Source: Mumia xiangluensis (lineage in GTDB: Bacteria; Actinomycetota; Actinomycetes; Propionibacteriales; Nocardioidaceae). From it: 64,000 nt of DNA. Shown here piece after piece: positions 34,720 through 62,516 of this stretch; position 1 is the first letter of the stretch; each line of letters begins with the position of its first letter. A program made the translations under genes and the position numbers. The notes under the pieces are model-generated. The model did no database searches, was not told the origin of the DNA, and saw nothing but the letters and a program-made list of their open reading frames with translations. The stretch is from NCBI RefSeq assembly GCF_010994095.1, contig NZ_WJYO01000007.1:186001-250000 (forward strand), in the 5' to 3' direction.

Positions 34720-34753
34720 CCCGGCCCGCACCTGACGGCCACGGAGAACTCCC

Positions 34754-43850: not shown

Positions 43851-44636
43851 TCAGCCTGCCTGGCCCGGCGGGACGACCGACGCGGCGCCGATGTCGTCGG
43901 CGAGCCCGCGCGTGCCGGCGAGTAGCCCACCGTCGACCGGGAGGTCGGCGCCGGTGATCCAGCCCGCGCGTTCCGACAGCAGGAAGTGGACGGCGTCGGC
44001 GACGTCTCTCGGCGTGCCGACCCTGCCGCTCGGGTACCAGCGCGTCGCCCGGTCGAGCGCGTCGGGACTCTCGGCGAGGCGACGCTGCCAGGCGGCGTTC
44101 GCGATCGTTCCCGGGGACACGGAGTTCACCCGGACACCGTGCGGTGCGTACTGGACCGCGAGCGACCGGGTCAGGTTCAGCAGGGCAGCCTTGGCCGCGC
44201 TGTACATGTCGTTCCCGAAGTACGCGTGGCCGTTGACGGAGGCGACGTTGACCACGGCACCGCGACCTGCGGACCGCATCGCGGGGAGCAACGCCTGCGA
44301 CATGCGGAAGGCGCCTCCCAGGACGACGTCGAGGTCCTCCGACCACGACGCCTCGTCGATCGACTCGAAGCCGACGTTGGTGCAGACCGCTGCGTTGTTG
44401 ACGAGGAAGTCCGGCGCGCCGAAGCGCGTCAGGAAGTCGTCGGCAACCGTGCGGACGGAGTCGGCCGACCTCAGGTCGAGAGCAACCGCCTCGGTGCCCG
44501 GCACGTCTCGCGCGACCGCGCGCGCGGCGTCCAGGTCCCGGTCGGCGAGCACGACCCGGTGGCCGTCGGCGACGATCGCACGGGCGATCTCGGCTCCGAT
44601 GTCACCGGCCGCACCGGTCACGATGGCGTGTCCCAT
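43851..44636 (-). CDS. SDR family oxidoreductase, last gene of the ABC importer operon
   Basis: 261 aa. TGAAGDIG cofactor loop, LVNNAAVC, NVASVNGHAYFG (Ser) and MYSAAKAALLNL (Tyr-Lys) are all canonical. ADRDL after strand two favours NAD(H). ATG 44636 lies 3 nt after the permease stop, so it is co-expressed with the sugar-type importer and probably oxidises the imported sugar or polyol. It is closely similar to the SDR at 13481-14251, which has an altered NNAG motif. Confidence 0.9.
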   Translation of the reverse strand: MGHAIVTGAAGDIGAEIARAIVADGHRVVLADRDLDAARAVARDVPGTEAVALDLRSADSVRTVADDFLTRFGAPDFLVNNAAVCTNVGFESIDEASWSEDLDVVLGGAFRMSQALLPAMRSAGRGAVVNVASVNGHAYFGNDMYSAAKAALLNLTRSLAVQYAPHGVRVNSVSPGTIANAAWQRRLAESPDALDRATRWYPSGRVGTPRDVADAVHFLLSERAGWITGADLPVDGGLLAGTRGLADDIGAASVVPPGQAG

Positions 44637-44639
44637 GAG

Positions 44640-45584
44640 TCATCCCTTCAGGGCGCCCACAGTGAGGCCCTTGGTGATCTGCTTCTGGAGGAGCGCGAAC
44701 GCGATGAGGACCGGCGCGACCGTCATCATCATCCCGGCGAACAGCGTGACCCAGTTGGTCCCGTAGTTCGCTGCCTGGCCCAGCTGGAACAGACCCAGCG
44801 GGAGCGTCATCTTCTCGGGGGTGTGGATCAGGAGCAACGCGTAGAAGAACTCGTTCCAGTTCTGGAGGAAGCTGATGATCGCCACCGACGCCACCCCCGG
44901 TCCCATCAGCGGCAAGATCACGGACACGAAGGTCCGGGTCGGCGACGCGCCGTCGATCGCGGCGGCCTCCTCCAGCTCGTACGGCAACGTCCGCATGAAC
45001 CCGGTCAGGACGAAGACGTTGAACGGCAGGTTGTACGTGGCGTAGACGAGGATCAGCCCGATCCGGCTGTCGAGCAGCCCGAAGCCCTGCATCAAGTTGT
45101 AGAGCGGCGCGAACGTCACCATCCACGGGATCATCAGACCCATCAGGAACACCGCGAGCACCACGCCGTTGAACCGGAACTGGACCCGGGCGAGCGGGTA
45201 GGCGGCGACGACCGAGACCACCACCCCGAGCACCGTCGCCGTGATGCTGACGAACAGGCTGTTGCCGAAGTACGCGCCGATGTTCGCGCCGTTCCAGGCG
45301 TTGGCGTAGTTCTCCCAGCGCCACCCCTCGGCGAGCTCCCACGGCGAGGTGCCGAGGAACTCGCGGTTCGTCTTCATCGAGACGTTGAAGACCCACGCGA
45401 AGGCGCTCGCCGTCGAGACGACGATGCTGCCGAGCAGGAGGTAGAAGAACAGGTGGTACGTCCGGAACGGCGCTGGACGCTCCTTCGTCCGCCTCCGCCG
45501 GGGACGTCGGATGGGCGGCGGCTCGGCGGCGAGCGGACGCGGATCCGCTGCGGGCTGGAGGACGTCAGTACTGGAGTTCGTCAC
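44640..45584 (-). CDS. Carbohydrate ABC transporter permease (MalG type)
   Basis: 314 aa, six membrane helices after a proline/arginine-rich cytoplasmic N-terminus of about 40 residues. The EAA loop, which contacts the ATPase, reads ELEEAAAIDGASPTRTFVSVILPL. The gene overlaps its MalF-type partner by 20 nt. No ATPase gene is in the cluster, so a shared MsiK/UgpC-type ATPase elsewhere is presumed. Confidence 0.92.
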   Translation of the reverse strand: MTNSSTDVLQPAADPRPLAAEPPPIRRPRRRRTKERPAPFRTYHLFFYLLLGSIVVSTASAFAWVFNVSMKTNREFLGTSPWELAEGWRWENYANAWNGANIGAYFGNSLFVSITATVLGVVVSVVAAYPLARVQFRFNGVVLAVFLMGLMIPWMVTFAPLYNLMQGFGLLDSRIGLILVYATYNLPFNVFVLTGFMRTLPYELEEAAAIDGASPTRTFVSVILPLMGPGVASVAIISFLQNWNEFFYALLLIHTPEKMTLPLGLFQLGQAANYGTNWVTLFAGMMMTVAPVLIAFALLQKQITKGLTVGALKG

Positions 45585-46443
45585 GCTTCATCACCTTGTT
45601 GAGGATCTTCGCGATGACCAGCATGAGCACGACGAGCACCGCACCCATCGCGGCCGCGTACCCGAAGTCGGCCTGGTCGAACGCGACTCTGTACATGAGG
45701 GTCCCGACGGTGTCCGTGGATCCGAACGGACCGCCCCCGGTCATGATGTAGATGAAGGCGAAGGCCTGGAAGCTCTGGACCACCCAGAGCACGAGCAGCA
45801 TGCGCAGCAGGTCGGCCAGCATCGGCAGCATGATGCTGAACAGGATGCGGACCTCGCCTGCACCGTCGATCCGCGCGGCCTCGAGGACGTCGCTCGGAAG
45901 CCGCTCGAAGCCCGCGCACAGGAGGACGACCCAGATCCCGATCCCGTGCCACACCGACACGAACGTGACTGCGGCAAGTGCCGTCGCCGGGTCACCGAGC
46001 CAGGTCTTCGCCAACGCACCGAGCCCCACCTCCTTCAACGCCGGGTTGATGAGCCCGAGCGTCGGGTGGTAGAGGAACTTCCACATGATCGACACGACGG
46101 CGACGGACAGCACGACGGGCGCGAAGACGAAGAACCTGAAGAACCGCTCGCCGCGCAGACGGTGGGACAGCGCCCACGCGATCGTCACGGCCGGCGGGAA
46201 GAGCATCAGCGCGCCGATGATCGTCAGGAGGAACGTGTTCTTCAACGCGTTCATGAAATCCGGGTCGCCGACGAGTCGCTCGTACTGATCGGTCCCCACG
46301 AACGTCATGGACCCCGTACGACTGAACTCGTTGAGCGAGAGGTCGACGGTCCGGGCGAGCGGGTAGAGGAAGAAGAGCGCCAACAGCACGAACGCCGGGA
46401 GCAGGAACGGGACGATGATCCGTCGCTGGGCTTTCCTGAGCAT
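45565..46443 (-). CDS. Carbohydrate ABC transporter permease (MalF type)
   Basis: 292 aa, six helices. The EAA loop is DVLEAARIDGAGEVRILFSIMLP, and the N-terminus IIVPFLLPAFVLLALFFLYP is typical. It forms the channel with the downstream permease. A perfect stem-loop (46465-46502) separates it from the binding-protein gene. Confidence 0.92.
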   Translation of the reverse strand: MLRKAQRRIIVPFLLPAFVLLALFFLYPLARTVDLSLNEFSRTGSMTFVGTDQYERLVGDPDFMNALKNTFLLTIIGALMLFPPAVTIAWALSHRLRGERFFRFFVFAPVVLSVAVVSIMWKFLYHPTLGLINPALKEVGLGALAKTWLGDPATALAAVTFVSVWHGIGIWVVLLCAGFERLPSDVLEAARIDGAGEVRILFSIMLPMLADLLRMLLVLWVVQSFQAFAFIYIMTGGGPFGSTDTVGTLMYRVAFDQADFGYAAAMGAVLVVLMLVIAKILNKVMKRDELQY

Positions 46444-46464
46444 GGAGCCTCCGTTGAGTGGGGT

Positions 46465-46502
46465 GCTGTCGCGGGTCCTCGATCCCGGGGACCCGCGACA
46501 GC
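46465..46502 (-). terminator. Intercistronic stem-loop between binding protein and permease genes
   Basis: GCTGTCGCGGGTCC (46465-46478) pairs perfectly with GGACCCGCGACAGC (46489-46502), loop 10 nt. Located inside an operon, it more likely stabilises the binding-protein mRNA or partly terminates, giving excess binding protein over permease. Confidence 0.75.
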
Positions 46503-46519
46503 GGACGGAAACGCAGGGG

Positions 46520-47866
46520 TCAGTTCCCGTAGACCCGTTTCAGACCCTCGTCCAGTGCGGCCAGGGTCTCCTCGGCGTCCTGCTTGCCGAAGACGAGCTT
46601 GGCGATCTCGGGGTAGACGACCTCGCTCGCCTTGGACTGCAGGATCCCGTAGTAGGCGGGATAGAGCTGGTCTGCGCTGCCGACGACCTCGGCGATCCCG
46701 GGGAGTCCCGGAGGGCTGGGGACGTCCTTGACGGCCGACACCTCGCCGATCTCCTCGGCGCGAGCGGTCTGCGTCTCGACGCTCGTGACGCGTCGCACCC
46801 ACTCGAGCGCGAGCGGGATGTTCTCGCTCTCGGCGTTCACCGACATCAGCTGGGCGGCCGCCATCATCCCGGCCTGGTCGCCGGCGCCGCCGTCGACGGT
46901 CGGGAACGCGATGACACCGAGGTCGAAGTCGGCCGGGATGACGTCCTTCATCTCGCTGACGAGCCAGCTGCCCATCAGGATCATCCCCGCCTTGCCCTGG
47001 AAGAACTGGGCCTGCGCGGCGGTGAAGTCGGTGCCCTCGAAGCCCTCGAGGAACGCTCCTTGGTCACGGAGCTCCTGCATCTTGGTCAGGCCGTCGAGGA
47101 AGCCAGGATCGTCGGTGATGCTGCCCTTGCCCTCGATGAGCACCTCGTGCACCTTGTCGTAGCCGACGGTGCGCATCCACAGGTTGTCGGTCCACATCCC
47201 CATGTACGGCTCGAACAGCCCGGTCACGGCGATCGGGTCGACGCCCGCGGACTTCAGCTTCGTCGCCGCGGCCGTCAGGTCGTCCCAGGTCGCCGGCGGG
47301 GTGATGCCGTTGTCCTTGAAGATCTTGGCGTTGTAGAAGAGCACCTGGAGCGAGAGCTCCGAGGGCACGCCGTAGATCCCCTTGCTCTCCGGGTGCTCCA
47401 TGAACTGCCGCACGGCCGGCGAGAACGAGTCGATCCACGGCGCGCCGGTCGTCTCGTCCTCCTGCTCGAGGTACGGCAGGAGGTCGAGGAGCTTGCCGTC
47501 GTCCGCCCATGCGAGCAGGGCGTCGTTCGTGCCGTCGAACATCGTGTAGTCGACGTCGAGGCCGTCACCGGACCGCCACCGCTGCTCGAGCGCCGGACGC
47601 GCCTCGGTGTTGGCGAACGTGAGCTTGACGTCGGTGCCGGAGATGTCGGTCGCCATGGAGTCGGCGATCTTCTCCAGGAACGCCAAGGACGGAGTGCCCG
47701 TCGCCGGCAGGACGCCGACCTCGATCGGCCCGCCCTCGATCTCGCTCTGCCAGCTCGACGCTGCGGGAGCGTCGGGCTGGTCGTCGCCCCCGGAACCACA
47801 TGCCGCCAGCGTCATCATCGGAACGACGACCGCCCCGACGACCAACAGCTTTCGTAGTGCAAACAC
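46520..47866 (-). CDS. ABC transporter extracellular solute-binding protein (family 1)
   Basis: 448 aa lipoprotein. The signal peptide ends in LAAC (Cys23), then a short Asp/Ser linker. The mature protein has the family 1 pattern: GIYGVPSELSLQVLFYNAKIF, WDDLTAAATKLK and QGKAGMILMGSWLVSEM. It should bind an oligosaccharide, sugar or sugar derivative. GTG 47866 follows GGGGAGGA. The ligand is probably the substrate of the 49033-55817 enzymes. Confidence 0.92.
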   Translation of the reverse strand: MFALRKLLVVGAVVVPMMTLAACGSGGDDQPDAPAASSWQSEIEGGPIEVGVLPATGTPSLAFLEKIADSMATDISGTDVKLTFANTEARPALEQRWRSGDGLDVDYTMFDGTNDALLAWADDGKLLDLLPYLEQEDETTGAPWIDSFSPAVRQFMEHPESKGIYGVPSELSLQVLFYNAKIFKDNGITPPATWDDLTAAATKLKSAGVDPIAVTGLFEPYMGMWTDNLWMRTVGYDKVHEVLIEGKGSITDDPGFLDGLTKMQELRDQGAFLEGFEGTDFTAAQAQFFQGKAGMILMGSWLVSEMKDVIPADFDLGVIAFPTVDGGAGDQAGMMAAAQLMSVNAESENIPLALEWVRRVTSVETQTARAEEIGEVSAVKDVPSPPGLPGIAEVVGSADQLYPAYYGILQSKASEVVYPEIAKLVFGKQDAEETLAALDEGLKRVYGN

Positions 47867-47913
47867 TGCAGGTCCTCCCCTTCTTCGTTGGTGTGCCAGT
47901 AGTTGGGCTGTCG

Positions 47914-48900
47914 TCAATGCCGCGGGGACAGATCTGGCAGCAGGTCCGAGAACTCCTCGAGGAAGACCTCGATCCGACGCAGCTCTTCTGCGTCGAGCTT
48001 GTGTGCCGGTCCGCGACAGAAGTCGCTGGCGAAGAGCCCGCGACGGAATGAGATGCGCTTCTCGGCGGCGATGATGAGCTCGGTGTCGAGCATCCAGTAC
48101 GAGATGAACGGCAGGAGCCGTCGGTGAAGGTCCTCCCCGGCGGCGATCTCGCCCGAGCTGAGCAGGCTCCAGATCTGGACGTAGATCTCGGTGAAGGAAC
48201 AGCCGGGCTGTGTCCCGACCGCTCCGCGACGCCACGCGTCCGGCAGCTGCACGCCGGCGTACCCCTCGATCGCGGCCAGCGGCGGCTGCAGCTCGGCGAG
48301 CTCGCCGATCAGGCGACCGGGCGGGCTCGACTCGACCTTCACGAGCCGAAGGTTGGCGTGCTTCGCGGCGAGGCCAGCGAGGATCCCGGCGTCGAGACTC
48401 GTCCCCGTCTCCGACGGCGCGTACTGCAGGACGACCGGGGTCGGCGCGACCGCCTCCAGGACCGCGACGACGTGCTCGACGATCGCGGCACGTGACGGCG
48501 AGAGGAGGTACGGGGGAAGCAGGTTGATGAGGTCGGCCCCCGCGTCGACCGCCTCACGGGCACGCGTCGCAGCGAGGACGGTCGCGTGGTCCTGGACCGC
48601 GACGATCGCGGCGACGTCGTGCCTCGGACCGGTGATGCCGAGCAGGATCGCCAGGAGCCTCGCGCGCTCCCCCTCGGTCAGCTTGTAGAACTCCGAGGCG
48701 AACCCGGGGAACATCATGCTGCTCACCCCGGTGCCGACCACGTAGTCGACGACGCGGGCGAAACCCTCCTCGTCGATCTCGCCCCGATCCGTGAACGGGA
48801 CCTCCAACACCGGCGAGACGCCCTTGACGAGGGCAGCCGCGTCGGCGGTGACGCTCTCCTGCTCTGCGGTCGATGTCTGCGGACCTGCGTCGATCGTCAT
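47914..48900 (-). CDS. DapA-superfamily aldolase/lyase
   Basis: 328 aa. Schiff-base Lys188 is in LRLVKVESSPPG and Tyr160 in LQYAPSETG; the usual GTTGE is MFPGFASEFYKL. The protein therefore keeps the class I aldolase machinery with an altered substrate loop, and belongs to neither KdgD nor true DapA by eye. A likely role is cleavage or dehydration of a 2-keto-acid intermediate. It is the first gene of the importer operon, behind an IclR-type motif at 48933-48956. Confidence 0.87.
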   Translation of the reverse strand: MTIDAGPQTSTAEQESVTADAAALVKGVSPVLEVPFTDRGEIDEEGFARVVDYVVGTGVSSMMFPGFASEFYKLTEGERARLLAILLGITGPRHDVAAIVAVQDHATVLAATRAREAVDAGADLINLLPPYLLSPSRAAIVEHVVAVLEAVAPTPVVLQYAPSETGTSLDAGILAGLAAKHANLRLVKVESSPPGRLIGELAELQPPLAAIEGYAGVQLPDAWRRGAVGTQPGCSFTEIYVQIWSLLSSGEIAAGEDLHRRLLPFISYWMLDTELIIAAEKRISFRRGLFASDFCRGPAHKLDAEELRRIEVFLEEFSDLLPDLSPRH

Positions 48901-48932
48901 CTGCTCTCGGTGCCCAATCTGCGTTGAAGTTT

Positions 48933-48956
48933 CGTTATTTCGAAAATGTTTTCGCG
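48933..48956. promoter_or_regulatory. IclR-type operator candidate 1 (importer operon)
   Basis: The core ATTTCGAAAATGTTT (48937-48951) lies 33-56 bp upstream of the DapA-like gene. It matches 13 of 15 bases of the core at 53258-53272, upstream of the second operon. The region is markedly AT-rich. Confidence 0.6.
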
Positions 48957-49032
48957 TAATGAGATACTAAGACTCCCGGGTCGTGGTCCACAAGAGGGTG
49001 GAAAGGATTCCCCGGAACGGTCCCGTGCGGAG

Positions 49033-49764
49033 TCAGCCGAGCAGGCGCCCGACCACCCCGCCGAGGACCTCGGCGCGCTCGGTGTCGGTAATAGGCCAGT
49101 CCGTCACACGGCTGAGCTCTGCCTCCGGCACCGTGTAGGGCGAGTCGGTCGAGAAGACCAGACGCGACGCCCCGATCTCTGGATCAGCGGCGAGCGCGGC
49201 AAGCACCGTGTCCCACGGGGCGTAGCACGTGTCTCCGAAGAGGTTCCCGGCGTAGCGCAACGCAGGCGCGGCATCGATCCAGAAGTCCGTCGCGCCGCTC
49301 CGCCCCATCACGAAGGCCACGTCAGGGAAGCGGCGGGCGAGACTGGCCAGCGGGAGAGGGAGCGCGCTCGGCGGCGTACCGGTCCGAACGTAGACGAACC
49401 ACCCTGCGTCCCGGGCGAACTCCAGCAACGGATCGAGCAGGCCGTCCAGCAGGTCGAAGCCCTGGAGGACACTGTCGACGCACAACGCTCGCGCTCCTGC
49501 ATCCCGGGCGCGCCGCAGCTCGTCGACCGCCCGGGCGCCACGCCACGGGTTGGCGACGGCGTAGGGGATCAGCCGGCCGCCGGACGCCGCGGCAGCAGCC
49601 GCAACCCGGTCGTTGCCCTCACGGTCGTCCACGGCGATGCACCGCTCGTCCGGTGCGACGAGCGCCTTGTCGATCCCGAGCCGGTCCATCGACGTGATCA
49701 GCGCCTCGGGCTCGAGGACGACCTCGCGTCCGCGCCCGAGGCGGACGTGTGCATCGATGATCAT
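49033..49764 (-). CDS. Amidohydrolase (COG2159 type), 243 aa
   Basis: Short TIM-barrel amidohydrolase. The N-terminal metal site reads MIIDAHVRLG, so the second His of HxH is replaced by Arg. There is no clear HxGH motif (AFVMGRSGATDFW), while the late Asp is kept in LVFSTDSPYTV. This suggests a divergent member with a reduced metal site. Last gene of the five-gene coupled operon; ATG 49764 overlaps the preceding stop. Confidence 0.8.
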   Translation of the reverse strand: MIIDAHVRLGRGREVVLEPEALITSMDRLGIDKALVAPDERCIAVDDREGNDRVAAAAAASGGRLIPYAVANPWRGARAVDELRRARDAGARALCVDSVLQGFDLLDGLLDPLLEFARDAGWFVYVRTGTPPSALPLPLASLARRFPDVAFVMGRSGATDFWIDAAPALRYAGNLFGDTCYAPWDTVLAALAADPEIGASRLVFSTDSPYTVPEAELSRVTDWPITDTERAEVLGGVVGRLLG

Positions 49765-50642
49765 GCTGGCGCTCCGACCGAGAGGCCGAGCGCCGAGAGC
49801 GCGTCGGCGTGGATGATGCCCTCGACGAGCTCGCTCGGGACCCGCGGGAGTCTCGTCCCCTCCAGGATCGTGTTCACCGCGCGAAGGCCGGCGATCGCCT
49901 CTCCCGTGTTGGCGATCGGGAAGTCGGAGCCCAGCAGGAGCTTGTGCGTGCAGCCCCACTCGACGGCCGCCAGCAGCGACTCGTAGCAGACCCATGGCCG
50001 CAGGTAGATCGACGACACGTCGGCGTACACGTGCGGATGCTTGCGGATCGTGACGACCGTCTCCTTGCCCCAGGGATGGCCCATGTGCGCCATCACGATG
50101 CGCAGCTCGGGAAACCGGAGGGCGACCTCGTCGGTCACGAGCGGGTACGTGTAGCGCAGCGGGGCGGCGCGGATCGGCGACGCTCCCTGGTGGAAGACGA
50201 TCGGGAGCGCGTTCTTCTCGCAGTAGGCGTAGAAGGCGAGCGCCTCGTCCCCGAGCGGGTCGAAGTTCTGGTAGTTCGGCCCGAGCTTCACGCCGACCAG
50301 CCCGAGCTCACGACACCGCTCGGCCTCGTCGAACGCATCCGGTTCGGTGGGGTCGACGGACATGAAGCCGATGCGCCGCGCCGGGTCGTGCGCGACGAAC
50401 TCCGCGGTCGCGTCGTTCGTCCGCTCCGGTGGATGAGGTATCCCCGTCGCGGCCTCCGGGTCGGGGACCGCGATGTTGAAGACGATCGTGACGTCGGCCG
50501 CCTCCATCGCCGTGTCGAACTCCGCCCACGAGTTGGTGGTCACCACGGGACGGTCGGTGCGCCAGGTCGTGAACACCTTGCGTTCCGACTCGGGCACCGA
50601 CTCGCGGTGCGTCGGGGTGTGGGCATGGACGTCGACGATCAT
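49761..50642 (-). CDS. Amidohydrolase (COG2159 type), 293 aa
   Basis: The metal site is intact: MIVDVHAHTP (HxH), IVFHQGASP, VMAHMGHPWG and the late Asp in LLLGSDFPIAN. Relatives are zinc-dependent decarboxylases (ACMSD-like) or lactonases. In this operon a lactone hydrolase or decarboxylase role is plausible but not determined. ATGA overlaps on both sides. Confidence 0.87.
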   Translation of the reverse strand: MIVDVHAHTPTHRESVPESERKVFTTWRTDRPVVTTNSWAEFDTAMEAADVTIVFNIAVPDPEAATGIPHPPERTNDATAEFVAHDPARRIGFMSVDPTEPDAFDEAERCRELGLVGVKLGPNYQNFDPLGDEALAFYAYCEKNALPIVFHQGASPIRAAPLRYTYPLVTDEVALRFPELRIVMAHMGHPWGKETVVTIRKHPHVYADVSSIYLRPWVCYESLLAAVEWGCTHKLLLGSDFPIANTGEAIAGLRAVNTILEGTRLPRVPSELVEGIIHADALSALGLSVGAPA

Positions 50643-51745
50643 CGAAGCTCCTCGATCAGGTCGGGTCGGGGGCGGACACCGAGGCCTGCGCCGGCACCCA
50701 GCCGGACGGTACGGCCGTCGCTGTCGAGAGGGTCCGCGAGCACGTCCTCGCGGTAGTAGAAGGCGCCGATGATGTCCGAGGGGATGTCGGCGGACAGACG
50801 AGGCAGCGCGCACGCGACGTGCAGCTGGGCGGCAGCACCCAGCCCGAACTCGCCGTTGGAACCGATGACCACGTCCAGCCCGAACGCCGCGGCGACGCTG
50901 CCCATGGCCAGAGCGCGTCCCGGGCCGCCGCTCTTCCCGATGTACAGGCTCACGCAGTCCGCCGCCTCCGAACGGACGAGACGAGTGAGGTCCGACATCC
51001 CGAACACCGACTCGTCCGCGACGACGGGCAGACCGTGTCGGCGCGTGGCCGCAAGACCGTCGAGGTCGCCGGGTGCGACGGGCTGCTCGATGAACGCGGC
51101 TCCGGCGGCCGCGATCTGCGGGATCGCTCGGAAGGCATCGGACCGGCTCCACCCGCCGTTCGCGTCGGCTCCTACGAACACGTCGGGACCGACGAGCTCA
51201 CGCACCGTGCGGACGCGCGCGACGTCAGCAGCGACCTCGAGCCCGACCTTCACCTTGAAGGCGTCGAAACCCAGCTTCCTCGCGGCCGCGACCATCGGCT
51301 CGAGGGCGTCGCCGTCTCCGGACAACGAGAGCTTGATATCGACCGTCTCGCGCCGGGGACCGCCGAGCGCCACCGCGAGCGGCACGTCGAGCGTGCGGGC
51401 GTACGCGTCCCAGAGCGCGGTGGCCACACCGGCCTTGGTGAAGGGGTTGCCCGCGAGCACACGGTCCATCCGGTCTTCCAGGTCGGCGACGGACGCGAGC
51501 GGGCGCCCGATGATCGCCGGCGCGAGCCTCGTACGGACGAAGTGGTCGGCGCTCGTCCCGTCCTCGCCGCTCCACAGCGGCGTGGCACTCACTTCCCCGA
51601 ATCCTTCGACGCCGTCGCTGGTGACGACGCGCACCAGCAGGAACTCGGAGCGGTCGTGCACTCCGCGGGCTCCCCGTACGACCAGGTCGGGATTCACGTC
51701 GAGCGTCATCGGCGCGGTGTGCACCGCGGCCACGGTCGCTCTCAT
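50639..51745 (-). CDS. Enolase-superfamily enzyme, MLE-like, with atypical beta-6 residue
   Basis: 368 aa. KxK is Lys164/Lys166 (DAFKVKVGLE). Metal ligands are Asp194 (GADANGGW), Glu220 (AFIEQPV) and Asp244 (VADESVF). In muconate-lactonising/dipeptide-epimerase relatives the end of strand six carries a second catalytic Lys (pattern IKLxKxGG); here the sequence is SLYIGKSGG, with Tyr268 at that position and Lys271 at the following conserved one. No His-Asp dyad of the mandelate racemase type is obvious. The reaction (dehydration, epimerisation or cycloisomerisation) is open. Confidence 0.87.
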   Translation of the reverse strand: MRATVAAVHTAPMTLDVNPDLVVRGARGVHDRSEFLLVRVVTSDGVEGFGEVSATPLWSGEDGTSADHFVRTRLAPAIIGRPLASVADLEDRMDRVLAGNPFTKAGVATALWDAYARTLDVPLAVALGGPRRETVDIKLSLSGDGDALEPMVAAARKLGFDAFKVKVGLEVAADVARVRTVRELVGPDVFVGADANGGWSRSDAFRAIPQIAAAGAAFIEQPVAPGDLDGLAATRRHGLPVVADESVFGMSDLTRLVRSEAADCVSLYIGKSGGPGRALAMGSVAAAFGLDVVIGSNGEFGLGAAAQLHVACALPRLSADIPSDIIGAFYYREDVLADPLDSDGRTVRLGAGAGLGVRPRPDLIEELR

Positions 51746-52503
51746 CGGGCACCGTCGAGGAGCGCCCGCGGGTTGTCGACGAGCATCGCCTGCTTCTGCT
51801 CGGGCGTGATGCCCCACCCTTCGATCTCCCGGACCCGAGCCACCGCGTAGTCCTGGCTGACGCGGTCGGAGAGTCCGGCATCCGTCCCGAAGAGGACCTT
51901 GTGCGGTGGGGCCTTCGCCAGGATCTCGCGCGCGGCGTACGGCGGGGTGCCGCAGATGCAGAGGTAGAGGTTCTCCGTCTCGCTGACCAGAGTGAGCGCC
52001 TCGCGCCACGTGTCGTGCAGGCCGCCGTGGCCGAGCACGACGGGGAGGGTCGGGTGCCGTCGCGCGAGCGCCGCGATCTGGCCGGCCGTCGAGTACGGAG
52101 GCGTGCCGTCGTGGCTGAGGAGCATCCCTCCCTCCGCCGCGAGCACCTCGCAGATCGGGTCGAGGCTGGCCTCGTGCATGCTGAACCCCTGCAGCCACGG
52201 GTGGAGCTTGAGCCCGCGCAGCCCGAGCGGGCCCATCATGCGTGCGACCTCCTCCGGAGCGCCCTCGAGTCGAGGGTGGACGGTGCCGAACCCGAGCAGT
52301 CGGTCCGGGAACTCCGCGACGAAGGCGGCGAGGTCGTCGTTCGTCGAGGGCGACGGGTCGAACAGTCCGTCGTGGCTGAGGACCACGGCCCGCTCGATCC
52401 CTGCGACGTCCATGAACCCGACGAACTCGTCAGCACCGAAGCTCACTCCCCCCAACCAGCTGCTCGTGCGCCACGAGGGGGTGTGGGTGTGGAAGTCGAT
52501 CAC
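51742..52503 (-). CDS. Amidohydrolase (COG2159 type), 253 aa
   Basis: The metal site is VIDFHTHTPSW (HxH), LLSHDGTPPYS, VVLGHGGLHDTW and FGTDAGLSD (late Asp). GLRGLKLHPWLQGFSMHE is the typical family strand. GTG 52503 follows GGAGG and overlaps the creatininase stop. It is a paralogue, at low identity, of the other two amidohydrolases in this operon. Confidence 0.87.
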   Translation of the reverse strand: MIDFHTHTPSWRTSSWLGGVSFGADEFVGFMDVAGIERAVVLSHDGLFDPSPSTNDDLAAFVAEFPDRLLGFGTVHPRLEGAPEEVARMMGPLGLRGLKLHPWLQGFSMHEASLDPICEVLAAEGGMLLSHDGTPPYSTAGQIAALARRHPTLPVVLGHGGLHDTWREALTLVSETENLYLCICGTPPYAAREILAKAPPHKVLFGTDAGLSDRVSQDYAVARVREIEGWGITPEQKQAMLVDNPRALLDGAR

Positions 52504-53237
52504 AGTGCCTCCGCCAGGTCGAGGAATCGCTTCGCCATCTGCTCGACGACGTGGTCGAGGCGGCGCTGCCCTGCCGCCTCGTCCGCCTTCTCGGGAAGGT
52601 CGGTGTAGCCGTCGATCGACGCCCACAGCGCGGTCGTGTGCACGTCGACGTCGTCGACCGCGACGAGCGCCGGCGCTGCAGACCGCGGCGGTGGCGTACC
52701 GACCCCGGCGGGGAGGAGCACCTGCATCAGCGAGGTCTCGAACTCGCCGGCGTGCCCGGGGACGAACACCCCGTCCTCACGACCGGCGAGACGCCAGTAG
52801 TCCAGGTGACCGACCGCGATCCCGAGCGAGACCGCGGCGTCGGCCGCCGCGGCATGGCAGACGCCGACGTTGCCGCCGTGACCGTTGACGAGGACAGCAC
52901 GTCGCCCTCCCTGGGTGGCGATCGAACCGAGCACGTCCGCGAGGACCGCGAGGAGGGTGGCCGGCTTCAGGGAGAGGGTGCCCCCGAACGCGAGGTGGTG
53001 GTCCGACGCACCCAGCTCCAGCGTGGGAGTGACGAGCAACGGGCGGGTCGAGCGGCCGGCCGCCTGCTGGGCGGCACGCCACGTGACCTCGCCGGCGATG
53101 AGGGCGTCGGTGCCGGTCGGAAGGTGCGGCCCGTGCTGCTCGGTCGCGCCGATCGGCACGAGGACGAGCGCATCTGGCAACCAGCGCGCGAGTCTCTCGC
53201 GGTCGGAGTGCGCCCAGAGCGCGGCAATCGAGGCCAC
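52500..53237 (-). CDS. Creatininase-family amidohydrolase
   Basis: 245 aa. Signature segments are LVPIGATEQHGPHLPTGTDA (metal Glu/His/Asp), LELGASDHHLAFGGTLSL, LVNGHGGN and the late Glu in GHAGEFETSLM. The family cleaves cyclic amides, N-formyl amides and some lactones with two zinc ions. First gene of the five-gene operon; an IclR-type motif lies 17 bp upstream. Confidence 0.92.
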   Translation of the reverse strand: MASIAALWAHSDRERLARWLPDALVLVPIGATEQHGPHLPTGTDALIAGEVTWRAAQQAAGRSTRPLLVTPTLELGASDHHLAFGGTLSLKPATLLAVLADVLGSIATQGGRRAVLVNGHGGNVGVCHAAAADAAVSLGIAVGHLDYWRLAGREDGVFVPGHAGEFETSLMQVLLPAGVGTPPPRSAAPALVAVDDVDVHTTALWASIDGYTDLPEKADEAAGQRRLDHVVEQMAKRFLDLAEAL

Positions 53238-53253
53238 ACCATGCTCCTATGCT

Positions 53254-53277
53254 CGAAATATCGGAAATGTTTCTCGA
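53254..53277. promoter_or_regulatory. IclR-type operator candidate 2 (creatininase operon)
   Basis: The core ATATCGGAAATGTTT (53258-53272) lies 17-40 bp upstream of the creatininase start and matches 13 of 15 bases of the core at 48937-48951. Confidence 0.6.
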
Positions 53278-53287
53278 TACACGAACA

Positions 53288-54109
53288 TTACGAGACAGGG
53301 ACCACGCTTGGCAACGACTCGGGCGGACATCCGAGACGACGCGAGACCTCCGTGGTCAGGTCCACCAGGCCGGCGGCGGCGACACGCATCTGATCCGGTG
53401 TGAGGTCACGGGCGAATCCCGTCACACCGAGCGCACCCGCCACGCTCCCGTCGATGCCGAAGAACGGGGCAGCGACGCACGAGATCTCGGCCTGCTCCTC
53501 CTCCTGCTCAACGGCGTACCCCTGCTCGCGCACCGTCTCCAACAGGGCCCGGAACGCCTTCTTGCCCCCCTTCGGCGCGTTGGGGCCTCGGCCCGGTGTC
53601 AGCTTCGAGAGGAGCGGGTCGAGCTCGTCGGGGTCGAGGTACGCCGCGATGGCGCGCCCGAGGGCCGTGAGGTTGAAGGGAGCGATCTTGCCGGAGTAGG
53701 TGTCGAACTGGACGAAGCCCGGCGTCGCTGCCTTGGCGACGTACACGACCGAGTGGCCGTCGAGCACGCCCATGTGGACAGGCATCCCGAGCCTGTCGGC
53801 GAGTGCTCGCATCTCACCCGTCGCGACACGCGAGAGGTCGGTGTCGCGCACGAGCTGGCTCGCGAGTCCGTACAGGCGCAACGTCGGGCGCCAGAAGTGG
53901 CTGCGTCCCACCACACGTCGCGAGGCGTACCCGCGCTGTTCGAGCGTGTAGACGATGCTCGCGCAGGTGGCGAGCGGAATGTTCGTGACCTTGGCGAGTG
54001 CCGTCAGCGTGAGCTCCTCGTCGGCCTCGACGAGGCACTCGAGAACCGTGAGCGCCCGGTCGACACCCGGCGACGCGGGCCGCTCCGCTGACTTGCTGCG
54101 ATCATCCAT
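53288..54109 (-). CDS. IclR family transcriptional regulator
   Basis: 273 aa. The winged helix contains TLTALAKVTNIPLATCASIV and a Tyr/Arg-rich wing (GYASRRVVG). The effector domain has FNLTALGRAIAAYL and ISCVAAPFFGIDGSVAGALGV. It is complete, unlike the remnant at 9451-9948. ATG 54109 follows GAAGG; an ATG at 54136 is less likely. It sits between the creatininase operon and the divergent KDPG aldolase gene and probably regulates both plus the importer operon. Confidence 0.92.
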   Translation of the reverse strand: MDDRSKSAERPASPGVDRALTVLECLVEADEELTLTALAKVTNIPLATCASIVYTLEQRGYASRRVVGRSHFWRPTLRLYGLASQLVRDTDLSRVATGEMRALADRLGMPVHMGVLDGHSVVYVAKAATPGFVQFDTYSGKIAPFNLTALGRAIAAYLDPDELDPLLSKLTPGRGPNAPKGGKKAFRALLETVREQGYAVEQEEEQAEISCVAAPFFGIDGSVAGALGVTGFARDLTPDQMRVAAAGLVDLTTEVSRRLGCPPESLPSVVPVS

Positions 54110-54202
54110 GGACCAACCTTCGCCTCTCGTCGCCATTGCCTGTGCATCGTTGCAGCGGGCAGACTGGTCGACACCACGGCCCGCCGGTAGATTATTCTAT
54201 AT

Positions 54203-54226
54203 CTCGATTGCTTTTTCGCAATATCG
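54203..54226. promoter_or_regulatory. IclR-type operator candidate 3 (KDPG aldolase/kinase operon)
   Basis: Read on the minus strand the site begins CGATATTGCGAAAAAG, which aligns with the other two sites, and it contains the inverted repeat CGATTGC / GCAATATCG. It lies 15 bp upstream of GTG 54241. Confidence 0.55.
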
Positions 54227-54240
54227 AAGGAAGGTGTGCC

Positions 54241-54879
54241 GTGGCGACTCCCCCGGCAGCGACTTCACGAATCACCGGCGTCGTGGCCATCATCCGGCTC
54301 CGCGACAGACCGGCCCCCGACAGGCTCGTCGACGCGCTCATCGCCGGCGGCGTCGAGCACCTCGAGGTGACGGCAACGACGCCGGACGCGCACGCGACGG
54401 TCGAGCGCTGGAGGCGGCGCCACCCGGAGGCGCTCGTGGGAGTCGGGACGGTCCGCACCCCTGCACAGGCCGAAGCCGCGATCTCCGCCGGAGCGACGTT
54501 CCTCGTGACACCCACGACTGTTCCCGGCGTGCTCGAGGTCGCGCGCACGCACGACATCCCGGTCGCGTGCGGCGCCCTCACCCCGACCGAGATCGACAAC
54601 GCCTGGCTCCTCGGCGCAGACACGGTGAAGGTGTTCCCGATCACCGCGGTCGGCGGCCCTGACTATCTCCGCGCCCTCCGCGACCCCCTGCCGGACGTCC
54701 CACTCCTGCCCACCGGAGGGGTGGACGCCGGAAACCTTCGCGCGTACGCGGGAGCCGGGGCGGCCGGTGTCGGCATCGGCAGCGCGCTCGTCTCCGAGGC
54801 ACGCGTCGCCGCGGAGCAGTGGGACGTCGTACGCGACCACGCGCGGTCCCTCACCGACGCCTGGAAGGGCCACGCATGA
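54241..54879 (+). CDS. 2-keto-3-deoxy-6-phosphogluconate aldolase family protein
   Basis: 212 aa, KDPG/KHG aldolase fold. Schiff-base Lys130 is in GADTVKVFPI, the base Glu42 in VEHLEVTATTP, and VGVGTVRTPAQAEAAI and LLPTGGVDAGNL are canonical. It splits a 2-keto-3-deoxy-6-phospho sugar acid into pyruvate and a triose phosphate. GTG 54241 follows GAAGGAAGG. It overlaps the PfkB kinase gene, which should make its substrate. Confidence 0.92.
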   Translation: MATPPAATSRITGVVAIIRLRDRPAPDRLVDALIAGGVEHLEVTATTPDAHATVERWRRRHPEALVGVGTVRTPAQAEAAISAGATFLVTPTTVPGVLEVARTHDIPVACGALTPTEIDNAWLLGADTVKVFPITAVGGPDYLRALRDPLPDVPLLPTGGVDAGNLRAYAGAGAAGVGIGSALVSEARVAAEQWDVVRDHARSLTDAWKGHA

Positions 54880-55817
54880 CTGACGTGCTCACCCTCGGCG
54901 AAGCCATGGGATGCCTGCGGGGCGAGGGCCGGGTGCAGCTCGGCGGCACGATGGCGCTCGGAGTCGCCGGCGCCGAGAGCAATGTCGCGATCGGCCTCTC
55001 CCGACTCGGCCACTCCTCCAGCTGGGTCGGTGTCGTCGGGCCTGATCAGATCGGCGAGCTGGTCGTCCGGACGCTCAGGGCCGAGGGCGTCGACGTCTCG
55101 AGCATCCGTCGGGGTGACGAGCCGACGGGGATCGTCGTCTTCGAGAACCGCGTCGCAGGAGTCGCGCGCGTGGACTACCACCGGCGCGGCTCCGCTGGCA
55201 GCACGGTGTCGGGAGACGATGTCGCCGTCGCGTTCGCTCAAGGCTCGCCACGCATCGTCCACCTCACAGGCGTGACGCTGGCGCTCAGCGAGACAGCAGC
55301 CGACGCGGTACGCACAGCAGCGCGACTCGCACGCGAGTGCGGAGCAGTGGTGTCGCTCGACGTCAACCACCGGAGCCGGCTGTGGTCCGCCGACACGGCT
55401 CGCACCGCCCTGTCGAGCGTGATCGACCTGGTCGACGTCGTCATCGCGTCGGAGGACGAGCTCGGCCTCGTCGCCCCGAGCGGGACGATCGCCGAGCAGG
55501 CAGGACAGCTCCTCGCCGCCGGAGCACGAGCGGTCGTCGTGAAGCAGGGATCGGACGGCGCGACGTCCTACACGGCCGACGGCGTCGTCCGCTCCCCCGC
55601 GCGCCGGGTGCGTGCTGTCGACGTCATCGGGGCCGGCGACGCGTTCGTGGCCGGCTACCTGTCGGGCCTGCTCGACGGCCTGCCCGAACCCGACCGGCTC
55701 CAGCGCGCGAACACCGTCGGTGCGTTCGCCGTCGCCTCCCGAGGCGACTGGGAGGGACTTCCGACACGGGAGGAGCTCGCGCTTCTCGACGTGACGCCAG
55801 GTGAGGTCGTGCGGTGA
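54876..55817 (+). CDS. PfkB family sugar kinase, 2-keto-3-deoxygluconate kinase-like
   Basis: 313 aa. The start LTLGEAMGCLRGEG and AGAESNVAIGLSRLG match KDG-kinase-like PfkB proteins. The anion-hole/catalytic motif is DVIGAGDAFVAGYLSG with the catalytic Asp, and LDVNHRSRLW is typical of KDG kinases. Coupled to the aldolase (ATGA). Together they form the lower half of a semi-phosphorylative Entner-Doudoroff-like route. Confidence 0.9.
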   Translation: MTDVLTLGEAMGCLRGEGRVQLGGTMALGVAGAESNVAIGLSRLGHSSSWVGVVGPDQIGELVVRTLRAEGVDVSSIRRGDEPTGIVVFENRVAGVARVDYHRRGSAGSTVSGDDVAVAFAQGSPRIVHLTGVTLALSETAADAVRTAARLARECGAVVSLDVNHRSRLWSADTARTALSSVIDLVDVVIASEDELGLVAPSGTIAEQAGQLLAAGARAVVVKQGSDGATSYTADGVVRSPARRVRAVDVIGAGDAFVAGYLSGLLDGLPEPDRLQRANTVGAFAVASRGDWEGLPTREELALLDVTPGEVVR

Positions 55818-55873
55818 GCAGCACCGCCGCGTACGGCGCAGGGCTGCGAGTCGCAGGGGTCTAGACGCGGGTC

Positions 55874-55916
55874 GACCCAGGTGGCGCATCCCGCGTGGGG
55901 CGGCGCCACCTGGGTC
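55874..55916. terminator. Bidirectional stem-loop between the kinase and RidA genes
   Basis: GACCCAGGTGGCGC (55874-55887) and GCGCCACCTGGGTC (55903-55916) form a perfect 14-bp stem around a 15-nt loop between two convergent genes. Confidence 0.85.
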
Positions 55917-55921
55917 AGAGG

Positions 55922-56329
55922 TCAGACAGCGGCTGCGCCGCTGCCCTTCACGGCCATCACATCGATCTCGACCAGGATCCCGCCCAGCTCCGACCCCGCG
56001 GTCGTCCGTACGGGCAAGGGCTCGGTGAAGAACTCCCGGTACGCGGCGTCGAACCCGTCCCAGTCCCGCTCGATGTCCGCGAGGTGGGCAGTGACCTTCA
56101 CCGTGTCCTGCAGATCCGCCCCCGCAGCAGCGAGCGCCGCCGCGACGTTGCGCAGCGTCTGCCGGGTCTGCTCCGCGACGTCGTCGCCGCCGACCAGCTC
56201 ACGGGTCTCCGGGTCGACCGGACCGAAACCGGCCGTGACGACGAGGTCGCCGACGACGACGGCCTGGGAGTACCACCCGCGCGGTGCAGGTGCCTGCGGC
56301 GTGGCGACGCTCTCCTTGCGCTGGCTCAC
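55922..56329 (-). CDS. RidA family protein (enamine/imine deaminase)
   Basis: 135 aa. YSQAVVVGDLVVTAGFGPVD, NVAAALAAAGADLQDTVKVTAHL and LPVRTTAGSELGGILVEIDVMA follow the RidA fold, with the conserved Arg in PVRTT. The family hydrolyses reactive enamines/imines. GTG 56329 is close behind GAGGGG at the end of the FG-GAP gene, so the two may be co-transcribed. The pairing with a secreted-protein operon may be incidental. Confidence 0.87.
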   Translation of the reverse strand: MSQRKESVATPQAPAPRGWYSQAVVVGDLVVTAGFGPVDPETRELVGGDDVAEQTRQTLRNVAAALAAAGADLQDTVKVTAHLADIERDWDGFDAAYREFFTEPLPVRTTAGSELGGILVEIDVMAVKGSGAAAV

Positions 56330-56334
56330 GCCCC

Positions 56335-58197
56335 TCACATCCCGAACGAGACGGCCGACTCGAACCCGTTGCCACCGAAGCGGCGTGCAGTCGTCCACGG
56401 GTTGGCCGCGGTCGCGCCGTTCCCCGGATGGATCCACACGGAGCCCGACGAGTCACGGACGACGAGGTCGGGGTTCGGCGTCCCGTCGACGAAGGCGACG
56501 TCGAGCGAGGTGACGCCCGACCAGTCCCCGTCGACGGCGATCGGATCCCCGGTCGCGGTCGGGAAGACCCACAGCGAACCGTCGTTCTCGAGGTCGACGA
56601 GATCGGCGTAGCCGTCGGTGTCGATGTCGTGCAGGGCGAGGTGCGACGCGTACTGCCAGTTGCTCCCGACCCACACCCGCGAGTCCCACGGGAACCCGGT
56701 GGTCACTCCGTTGCCCGGGTAGGCATACAGGTCGCCACCCGGCTGCCGTCCGACGATGTCGGTCTTCCCGTCGCCGGTGACGTCACCTGCCACGAGCATG
56801 TTGAAGATGTTCCAGCCCGTGCCGGCGAAGTACCGGGTCGGCCAGGGGTTCCCGGTCGTCGCACCGTTGTTGAGGTAGATCCACAGCGTGCCGTTGGCCG
56901 CTGCCCGGTCGAGAACCAGAAGATCCTGCCGGGAGTCTCCGTTCACGTCGTCGACCAGGATGCGCGAGGCGAACCCCCACTCCTCGCCCGCGGCGCGCAG
57001 CGACGTCCACGGGTTGCCGGTGGTGGAACCGTTGTTCGGCAGCACGAACAGGCTCTGTCCCTTGCCGAGCCGCCCCGCGAGCTCCGGCGAGCCGTCGCCG
57101 TCGACGTCGCCGAGCAGCAGGCCGGTCGCGTAGGTGAAGCCCGTGCCCGCCGGGAAGCTCGTCGAGGCCGACCACATGCTCCCGGGCGTGGTCCCCAGGC
57201 CTGGGTGCACCTTCAGCGACCCCGTCTCCGACCGCGCGAGGATGTCGGGCCTGTCGTCGCCGGTCACGTCGCCCAGCTCGAGCCGATCACCGAGCCCGAA
57301 CCCGCTGACCCCGGTGATGATCGAGGTCCAGAAGTTCGAGGTGGTCGCGCCGTTGTGGGGGTACACGAGGATGTTCCCGCTGCCGTCGCGCGCGACGATG
57401 TCGGGATTGCCGTCGCCGGTCGCGTCTCCGAGCATCAACGCGTTCGCGAGGTTCCAGCCGGTGCCCGACCAGATCGGTGAGGTCGTCCACGGGTTGGAGG
57501 TGGTCGACCCGTTGCCGCGGTAGACCCAGAGCGTGCCACCGGAGTTGGACGGGTCGCGGACGAGCAGGTCGGCGTTGCCGTCCCGCGTGACGTCTCCGAC
57601 CCGGATGGTGTCAGCGAGGTTCCAGCCCGTGCCCGCGTGCACCCGCGTCGTCCACGGGTCGGCCGGGTCCCCGTTGTTCGGGTAGACCCAGAGCGTTCCA
57701 CCGTCCGCCCCCGGGTCTCGCACGATGAGGTCGTCCAGGGCGTCGCCGGTGAGGTCGGCGAGAACGGCCAGGTCGGCGAAGTCCCATCGCGTGGTGGTCG
57801 TCCGGAACGCCCCCGTCCACGGGTTGGAGGTGGTCGAGCCGTTGTGGTCGTAGATGCGGAGAGCACCCGCGTCCGGCGCGGACATCTGTGCCACGAGGTC
57901 GGCTCGGCCGTCGCCGGTGACGTCGGGTGGCAGGGAAGCCGCGGCGAGCGCCTTCGCCAGGTCCTGCTGGGGAGCAGCGTCCTGCGCGGACTTGCCCTTC
58001 GCCTTCTTGCGGTCGGCGGGCGACCGCAGCTTCGCGGCGTTCCAGGTCGGCTTCGCCTTCGGGTGCGGACGGACCTTCGCCCGAGAGTCGCGTCCGTCGC
58101 GCGGCGCGGCCGACGCCTCGACCGCCTGCGTGCCGGTGAGTCCGATGAGCAGCGCCGTGGTCAGCGCCCCCAGACGGGTGATTGACTTCCTGGACAT
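56335..58197 (-). CDS. Secreted FG-GAP/VCBS repeat protein
   Basis: 620 aa. A signal peptide (1-31, AxA near 29) and a basic Lys/Arg/Pro linker are followed by about nine calcium-loop repeats (DVTGDGRADLVA; DLTGDALDDLIV; DVDGDGSPELAG; DVNGDSRQDLLV; DVTGDGKTDIVG), alternating with NPWT-containing strands (NGSTTSNPWT, NGATTGNPWP). This builds a beta-propeller of the integrin-like type. No catalytic domain is seen, so binding to polysaccharide or protein is likely. ATG overlaps the stop of the upstream Tat-exported protein gene (TGATG). Confidence 0.87.
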   Translation of the reverse strand: MSRKSITRLGALTTALLIGLTGTQAVEASAAPRDGRDSRAKVRPHPKAKPTWNAAKLRSPADRKKAKGKSAQDAAPQQDLAKALAAASLPPDVTGDGRADLVAQMSAPDAGALRIYDHNGSTTSNPWTGAFRTTTTRWDFADLAVLADLTGDALDDLIVRDPGADGGTLWVYPNNGDPADPWTTRVHAGTGWNLADTIRVGDVTRDGNADLLVRDPSNSGGTLWVYRGNGSTTSNPWTTSPIWSGTGWNLANALMLGDATGDGNPDIVARDGSGNILVYPHNGATTSNFWTSIITGVSGFGLGDRLELGDVTGDDRPDILARSETGSLKVHPGLGTTPGSMWSASTSFPAGTGFTYATGLLLGDVDGDGSPELAGRLGKGQSLFVLPNNGSTTGNPWTSLRAAGEEWGFASRILVDDVNGDSRQDLLVLDRAAANGTLWIYLNNGATTGNPWPTRYFAGTGWNIFNMLVAGDVTGDGKTDIVGRQPGGDLYAYPGNGVTTGFPWDSRVWVGSNWQYASHLALHDIDTDGYADLVDLENDGSLWVFPTATGDPIAVDGDWSGVTSLDVAFVDGTPNPDLVVRDSSGSVWIHPGNGATAANPWTTARRFGGNGFESAVSFGM

Positions 58198-60656: not shown

Positions 60657-60699
60657 GCCAGCCTCCCTGCGTCGAACTTCTGGTTGGGTTGTCGCTCGC

Positions 60700-62489: not shown

Positions 62490-62516
62490 GATATCTTTCG
62501 GTATTCTGGAAATATC
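62490..62516. promoter_or_regulatory. Operator-like inverted repeat upstream of the GH43-like gene
   Basis: GATATCTTTC (62490-62499) and GGAAATATC (62508-62516) form an imperfect inverted repeat 54-80 bp upstream of the start. GAAATATC is identical to eight bases of the IclR-type site at 53254. Lies in a local AT-rich patch. Confidence 0.45.

Follow-up and report, generated by a model that had tools for sequence, protein, structure and literature searches.

A co-inherited gene cassette of Actinomycetota with a predicted role in oxidative sugar-acid catabolism

The window analysed here is a stretch of 64,000 nucleotides from the 4.62-Mb, high-GC genome of Mumia xiangluensis (contig NZ_WJYO01000007.1, positions 186,001-250,000; all coordinates below are those of the window). 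From position 43851 to about 62.5 kb it carries a system of some 17 genes that almost certainly forms a dedicated, co-inherited regulon (Table 1). A creatininase-family hydrolase (CRE), an enolase-superfamily enzyme (ENO) and three PF04909 proteins (AH1, AH2 and AH3) are encoded in the order CRE-AH3-ENO-AH2-AH1, with four 4-base stop/start overlaps (GTGA, ATGA, ATGA and ATGA). A gap of 132 bases separates this unit from the genes of a DapA-family lyase, a solute-binding protein, two permeases and a short-chain dehydrogenase (SDR), which share its strand. The 2-keto-3-deoxy-6-phosphogluconate (KDPG) aldolase and PfkB-family kinase genes lie on the opposite strand, with the gene of an IclR-family regulator between this pair and CRE. 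A fourth unit (55922-62436, minus strand) comprises genes for a GH43 protein, an 819-amino-acid (819-aa) exported protein, an FG-GAP protein and, as its last gene, RidA. CRE is the sole PF02633 match of the genome, and three of the genome's seven PF04909 matches fall in this locus. No importer ATPase is among the genes identified at the locus, and no search for one was made elsewhere in the genome.

The genes named in a first-pass annotation of this DNA, including the overlapping five-gene operon, were all confirmed by position and domain checks. It divided the genes into three units that looked co-regulated and overlooked the fourth unit and the IclR regulator. Just outside the system, at 42294-43286 on the minus strand, lies a gene for a protein weakly matching AttM-type lactonases (50 of 390 bits), which adjoins the system and is not seen as a member. 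An interspersed repeat, GGTCTCGATCGCTTCGCGCCTCGACCA, is arrayed in tandem at 62604-62777 and has 89 copies genome-wide (at most two mismatches), often clustered.

Table 1. Genes and palindromes of the system (window coordinates).
Feature	Position	Strand	Basis or remark
SDR dehydrogenase	43851..44636	-	PF13561, 193 bits
ABC permease, MalG-like position	44640..45584	-	PF00528 (BPD_transp_1), 63.5 bits; kept adjoining the cassette
ABC permease, MalF-like position	45565..46443	-	PF00528 (BPD_transp_1), 60 bits; kept adjoining the cassette
Solute-binding lipoprotein	46520..47866	-	PF01547, 94 bits
DapA-family lyase	47914..48900	-	Domain and PDB comparison, residue conservation
Perfect palindrome TTTCGTTATTTCGAAA	48930..48945		5′ of dapA operon
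AH1, PF04909 fold without usual metal site	49033..49764	-	Domain, alignment, dN/dS
AH2, PF04909, metal ligands intact	49761..50642	-	Most widely kept member; scan query
ENO, enolase superfamily, muconate-lactonizing-enzyme type	50639..51745	-	Domain, NCBIfam, residues
AH3, PF04909, metal ligands intact	51742..52503	-	Occurs wherever AH1 does
CRE, creatininase-family hydrolase	52500..53237	-	PF02633, 176.8 bits (cut-off 31.3)
IclR-family regulator	53288..54109	-	Domain; adjoins cassette in 30/39 loci
One-mismatch palindrome TTTCGCAATATCGAAG	54214..54229		5′ of aldolase-kinase operon, facing iclR
KDPG/KHG aldolase	54241..54879	+	TIGR01182, 174 bits (cut-off 156.05)
PfkB-family kinase	54876..55817	+	PF00294, 162.7 bits
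RidA family (enamine/imine deaminase type)	55922..56329	-	PF01042, 96 bits; PVRT arginine; start uncertain
FG-GAP repeat protein, signal-like N-terminus (by eye)	56335..58197	-	PF13517; kept together with 819-aa protein gene
819-aa exported-type protein	58197..60656	-	Twin-arginine-type N-terminus by eye; no Pfam domain
GH43 + FG-GAP protein, signal-like N-terminus (by eye)	60700..62436	-	PF04616, 123.1 bits (cut-off 32.2)
Two-mismatch palindrome	62496..62511		60 bases 5′ of GH43

The inheritance of these genes was followed with an AH2 scan of one genome per species, which returned 175 relatives, the best 80 of which were used; stretches of relatives are given L-numbers, and the sister genome is referred to as the congener. 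A matrix of 39 loci, the window not counted, was made up of 29 of the 80 with an AH2 match of at least 66%, two Gaiella-type loci (55-56%) picked since they also hold the other members of the system, seven loci from within the order of the window (after removal of two duplicates) and the congener. The 49 loci of the 80 that remain (AH2 about 47-61%) stand outside the matrix and are mostly without the cassette. AH2 is present in all 39 by selection, ENO in 37, CRE in 34, AH3 in 33, AH1 and DapA in 32 each and IclR in 30; because contig ends cut some loci, absences in the matrix are upper bounds. The first-pass annotation had taken these genes for one catabolic system, and genome neighbourhoods do not show them scattered singly among relatives: CRE, AH3, ENO, AH2, AH1 and DapA recur jointly, and this recurrence in the 39 selected loci, with the palindrome described below, supports one co-inherited system with a shared operator.

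Other members vary. A Gfo/Idh dehydrogenase occurs in 27 loci (28 with L072, just below threshold), and SDR orthologues (threshold 55% identity) in four, L036, L037, L038 and L119, at 65-82%; the SDR of the window seems to take the place of the Gfo/Idh enzyme of most relatives. The genes of the sugar-type importer are there as annotated, but the importer differs among loci, with a MalE-type binding protein in 14 loci, a Dpp-type in 14 and either type in 26. Importer and dehydrogenase are, judged from gene content, exchangeable parts. The kinase (six loci) and KDPG aldolase (five) had been regarded as the lower half of the pathway and turn out to be accessory, in contrast to DapA with its 32 loci. 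U470, a protein family of the relatives, occurs in 15 loci, RidA-family proteins in 12, the 819-aa exported protein and a HisD-like protein in seven each, and GH43 in two.

AH1, AH3 and a dehydrogenase are jointly there in 32 loci, if the near-threshold Gfo/Idh of L072 is included, and are all missing in six, four from Amycolatopsis and two from Kribbella, the latter with AH2-DapA; in L053 the sequence ends short of AH1. Each locus of the reduced Amycolatopsis variant (L048, L049, L051 and L054) combines CRE-AH2-DapA-ENO and a DMFA2-type gene, and a gene for a twin-arginine-type (TAT-type) FAD/BBE oxidase lies nearby, L048 having an MFS transporter gene in addition. This pattern, which reflects few independent events, suggests that the dehydrogenase, AH3 and AH1 share one step, most simply the conversion of sugar to lactone to acid, and that CRE, ENO, AH2 and DapA carry out the steps that follow.

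The cassette is found across about a dozen families of Actinomycetota. Four genomes have a 13-gene arrangement that includes SDR, aldolase, kinase and importer, namely those of Sinosporangium, Dactylosporangium and Rhizohabitans, all three of other families, and the congener; parts of the fourth unit also adjoin the cassette in L036, L037, L039, L040, L047, L050, L056 and L119. Of the order's 293 genomes, 13 matched an AH1 query at E 1e-20, and ten of these, the window's own included, hold orthologues (at least 65% identity). With AH2 as query at 1e-60, three of the family's 197 genomes matched (the window's own, the congener at 95% and one at 48%), and AH2 is present in two of the six genomes that are the window's own or of the same genus. 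A tree built from five concatenated proteins of 30 loci places the window and the congener with Sinosporangium, Dactylosporangium and Rhizohabitans (support 100/100), and Kribbella and Propionibacteriaceae of the same order fall apart from the window-congener group. The tree grouping, together with the patchy distribution, suggests that the cassette spread horizontally. In a plasmid collection, AH2 homologues turned up in 12 records; they were distant, none reaching 60%, and were set aside. As separate observations, the U368 family (L072:12277-13383; also L052, L063 and L077) has no Pfam match and recurs adjoining the cassette, and the actinobacterial metagenome loci L069, L070 and L071 hold AH2 with two DMFA2-type proteins, a U32-like protein, a creatininase-family protein, an FmdA-type amidase, a second COG2159-type protein and an enolase-superfamily protein.

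The palindrome TTTCG-N6-CGAAA was derived by comparing upstream regions. Three matches lie in the window against 0.44 expected, and one of 100 shuffles reaches three. At no more than one mismatch the whole genome has three places, two of them at this locus and a third (contig C2) that adjoins no system gene, and the congener genome has two, both at this locus. One of the congener's sites sits 22 bases 5′ of GH43 with a single mismatch, better than the two-mismatch copy of the window, and the system therefore reaches about 62.5 kb and would begin extracellularly; operator and synteny together are the reason for assigning the fourth unit to it. The 34 relatives examined have 24 sites in all at no more than one mismatch, 21 of which fall inside upstream zones (those of the dapA, gfo, aldolase, exported protein, U470, eno and permease genes) that make up 13.6% of the bases, and in 13 relatives a site precedes a system gene. 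First-order simulation, repeated five times, produced between 6 and 12 sites in total for these relatives, and each of 19 letter-shuffled control palindromes had at most seven sites in the zones, one control totalling 24 sites. The IclR protein would be the likely reader of the palindrome. With regard to U470 (L059:12948-14399 and 14 more of the 39 loci), which has no Pfam match, a structure model (predicted local distance difference test score, pLDDT, 78) has a glycosidase-like TIM barrel plus beta-sandwich, for which a GH84-like pair of Asp residues is a conjecture, and the palindrome precedes its gene in L023 and L025.

The active sites of all five enzymes examined in this respect, ENO, CRE, DapA, AH2 and AH3, are intact in the alignments. 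The metal-binding residues of CRE, AH2, AH3 and AH1 are assigned from those usual in their families. In ENO, K164, K166, D194, E220, D244, E245 and K271 are invariant in 38 of 38 copies and include the catalytic residues K-x-K, D, E, D, K of the muconate-lactonizing-enzyme (MLE) type. ENO matches 18 NCBIfam models, each below its cut-off, the best being muconate cycloisomerase (TIGR02534, 193.8 bits, cut-off 334.95) along with cis-3-hydroxyproline dehydratase, and N-acylamino-acid racemases are also among its relatives. Metal ligands are intact in 40 of 40 copies of AH2 and 34 of 34 of AH3, both of which weakly match ACMSD and 5-carboxyvanillate decarboxylase. These ENO, AH2 and AH3 matches would suit a pathway of aromatic ring fission, with ENO as a muconate-type cycloisomerase, AH2 and AH3 as ACMSD/LigW-type decarboxylases and RidA as a 2-aminomuconate deaminase. 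Such a pathway is very improbable, however, as the sugar-type importer, the glycosidase-type genes and the KDPG aldolase do not fit it; no ring-opening dioxygenase turned up among the proteins scanned, though no search aimed at one was made.

In CRE, residues E33, H35, D44, H120, H162 and E167 are invariant (35/35), and we take the first four to be metal ligands. The protein falls short of the models for true creatininase (TIGR04448, 82.5 of 235 bits), IolN (NF041098, 44.5 of 245) and MftE (TIGR03964, 98.8 of 172). The two Gfo/Idh enzymes examined (L023 and L030) have inositol 2-dehydrogenase as their best match (IolG, 64.6 and 70.7 of 355). Both results bear on cyclitol catabolism, in which an inositol-type ring would be oxidised and the diketone ring opened by CRE as in the IolN route, and for which a kinase and an aldolase of the 2-keto-3-deoxy acid type are also at hand; yet the scores are far under their cut-offs, and such a route has no use for three COG2159-type proteins or for exported proteins of glycosidase type, which leaves cyclitols a quite unlikely substrate class.

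A carbohydrate substrate is highly probable. The solute-binding protein has as its nearest families binders of saccharides and oligosaccharides (NgcE, chito- and xylo-oligosaccharide; PDB 3vxb, 7ehp and 7eho), its NgcE score of 106.7 bits being far under the cut-off of 399.65. The SDR matches 232 SDR-type families, with no uronate dehydrogenase among the best 25 of the 232. The PfkB kinase scores best with the 2-keto-3-deoxy-sugar-acid kinase model (NF040938, 183.4 of 400 bits) and stays below the cut-offs of the 2-keto-3-deoxygluconate (KDG) kinase models, and the KDPG aldolase passes its TIGR01182 cut-off. GH43 scores weakly to arabinanases. The 819-aa protein reaches 13.6 of 22.7 bits with Pfam TAT_signal and 21 of 820.7 bits with TIGR01577, and a PDB profile search gave no real match (best E 1.4); its model (mean pLDDT 48, weak Foldseek matches to GH78, GH94 and GH116) hints at an (alpha/alpha)-barrel glycosidase-like fold. 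GH123 was rejected as a general partner: apparent matches in L047, L119 and L126 overlap or adjoin GH43 or FG-GAP, and the catalytic domain was found only in L031, the sole such protein scanned.

The DapA-family protein, in which Lys188 and Tyr160 are invariant (30/30), has as nearest solved relatives, weakly, L-2-keto-3-deoxyarabonate dehydratases (E 1.6e-16 and 5.7e-16), YagE also being matched. Its relatives and the presence of GH43 within the regulon would be accounted for by a nitrogen-free oxidative route for a pentose or hexuronate glycan, in which a dehydrogenase acts first, AH3/AH1 or AH2 open the lactone, ENO dehydrates, DapA serves as 2-keto-3-deoxy acid dehydratase or aldolase, CRE is a lactonase or C-C hydrolase and RidA a helper. 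Galacturonate oxidation, as set out in the available text of PMC6353982, likewise has an amidohydrolase-superfamily galactaro-lactone isomerisation and a cycloisomerase that turns the lactone directly into a keto acid. This nitrogen-free route is nevertheless rather unlikely, as it needs neither the CRE and AH2 retained by the small variants (L048, L049, L051 and L054) nor RidA, DapA is far under the KdgD cut-off (50.2 of 373.95 bits), and a true KdgD with aldarate dehydratases is encoded at 25-32 kb. A plain aldarate or hexuronate pathway was rejected, given the failure of DapA as KdgD and the separate, well-scoring glucarate/galactarate set. That set, at 25240-36388, includes KdgD (446 bits, cut-off 374), galactarate/talarate dehydratase (696, cut-off 500) and glucarate dehydratase (796, just below the cut-off of 829), adjoining a TctC-TctB-TctA tripartite tricarboxylate-type transporter.

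AH1 is the most surprising part of the system. The first-pass annotation had counted three COG2159 amidohydrolases, which suits AH2 and AH3 with their intact ligands, but AH1 has no metal site and is no ordinary metal hydrolase: three metal histidine positions are lost in 33 of 33 copies, so that it falls outside the metal-dependent COG2159 type. Position 8 is Arg in 31 of the 33 and Met in two, position 127 is Arg in all, and position 155 is Arg in 24 and Lys in nine (Arg8, Arg127 and Arg155 in the window); His6 (32/33, one gap) and Asp207 (33/33) are retained. A 42% paralogue in L032 has His at the three positions and keeps every metal histidine. Between window and congener the ratio of non-synonymous to synonymous substitution (dN/dS; our own Nei-Gojobori script) is 0.090 for AH1, 0.088 for ENO and 0.135 for AH3. 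As the loss of ligands is conserved and dN/dS is 0.090, AH1 is evidently maintained without the usual metal site, and it can be read as a predicted partner of AH3 or an enzyme with a new cationic site. A PDB sequence search with AH1 gave weak matches only.

A lactone, lactam or N-substituted sugar acid, proposed as substrate in the first-pass annotation, remains a good fit to the predicted enzymes. A nitrogen theme comes from RidA, which is found in 12 of the 39 loci, six times as the window's type, with the PVRT-type arginine (presumably in its usual role) wherever the C-terminal part is covered, and six times as a divergent second type. The two types, used as queries, matched 35 and 21 times in 11 genomes of this kind (about 95 Mb), which gives about 0.5 expected against the 12 seen, a figure that is not a probability, since the 39 loci are related and this inflates counts. 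In L036 and L038 an 81% RidA copy lies just beyond the stretch compared. A parallel is the GlcNAc1A (ong) cluster of Pseudoalteromonas, with beta-hexosaminidase, deacetylase, RidA and KDG kinase; its route deacetylates, deaminates and phosphorylates to KDG-6-P, and RidA is essential there in a role given as unknown (available text of PMC9537276). RidA and this analogy tentatively favour an N-substituted sugar, held at rather less than an even chance. In the 49 distant AH2 loci a class-III aminotransferase occurs in 29, second-type RidA in 10, DMFA2-type genes in five and FmdA-type in three, and in the 39 cassette loci these numbers are 0, 6, 4 and 0.

Collectively, these observations suggest a mobile, operator-controlled catabolic regulon in which an extracellular glycan is cut, imported and degraded oxidatively, a prediction to which we give not quite even odds. 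GH43, the FG-GAP proteins and the exported protein of TAT type would release a saccharide extracellularly, as their families and signals indicate, and a MalEFG-type importer may take it up. The dehydrogenase (SDR here, Gfo/Idh in relatives) would yield an aldonolactone, and AH3 with its metal-free partner AH1 would open it, a step assigned to this pair because the two are jointly present or absent. CRE and AH2 could strip an N-acyl or other amide or lactam group, ENO would abstract the proton next to the carboxylate and eliminate water to give a 2-keto-3-deoxy acid, RidA could hydrolyse the enamine or imine expected from an amino-sugar acid, and DapA would cleave or dehydrate the product. In the window, the PfkB kinase and KDPG aldolase may provide a second exit to pyruvate and triose phosphate. 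More specifically, and with a low probability, an N-acylated amino sugar could be degraded without prior phosphorylation or a pyridoxal phosphate (PLP) deaminase, through oxidation to the lactone, opening by the AH3-AH1 pair (AH1 metal-free, with an Arg/Arg/Arg-or-Lys pocket), dehydration by an N-acyl-tolerant ENO, de-acylation by CRE and clearing by RidA.

Several points weigh against this interpretation. With regard to nitrogen, the amine and amide genes are found chiefly in the distant relatives, RidA may adjoin catabolic operons for other reasons, and no PLP deaminase of the ong kind (OngC) is among the domain-scanned genes at 43851-62436. With regard to the glycan, GH43 points to pentose, plant-type glycans, a catalytic GH123 domain is seen at one locus only (L031), and the model from which the fold of the 819-aa protein is taken is poor. 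AH2 and CRE have been given their roles by guesswork, from the chemistry of their families, and DapA alongside KDPG aldolase and kinase is left without explanation. Finally, 21 of the 34 relatives have no palindrome with at most one mismatch before a system gene, and 19 have none at all.

Literature searches, whose coverage excludes most subscription papers, found no account of this gene set, in agreement with the first-pass annotation, and the system is regarded here as a variant of oxidative sugar-acid catabolism not described before. Roles for the expanded enolase superfamily of SAR202 are put forward in PMC6946804, whose available text does not contain the term COG2159. The cassette gives a coherent job to enzymes named only by superfamily in the databases used, brings in two glycosidase-like families without a Pfam match (the 819-aa exported protein and U470) and contains an amidohydrolase fold whose metal site is replaced, mostly by arginines, under purifying selection. 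Knowing its substrate would make it easier to assign many protein families at once and might bring to light a new route for sugar acids or amino sugars.

With the oxidative chitin (ong) cluster the system shares a glycosidase, RidA, a predicted deacylating hydrolase and a repressor in one cluster, and its PfkB-family kinase may correspond to the KDG kinase there, whereas the ong cluster has a PLP deaminase and an SSS transporter, and its eight-gene list, in the available text, is without enolase-superfamily, DapA, creatininase or COG2159 proteins (PMC9537276). ENO is like the group formed by muconate cycloisomerase, N-acylamino-acid racemase and cis-3-hydroxyproline dehydratase in its fold and in its active site (K-x-K, D, E, D, K), and differs from it in failing the cut-off of every NCBIfam model matched. 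Weimberg-type oxidative pentose pathways have a dehydrogenase and a DapA-family 2-keto-3-deoxypentonate dehydratase, both with likely counterparts in the system, which has CRE, AH1-3, RidA and the MLE-type enolase-superfamily enzyme in addition. For the Udh-Gli-Gci-KdgD pathway of galacturonate oxidation, some family memberships are taken from general background. That pathway has no counterpart of CRE, AH1, AH2 or RidA, and its KdgD differs from the DapA found here, which is under the KdgD cut-off. Yet the likeness extends over several steps in the available text of PMC6353982: a dehydrogenase that yields a lactone, a lactone step by an amidohydrolase-superfamily enzyme, a cycloisomerase and a DapA-family dehydratase step.

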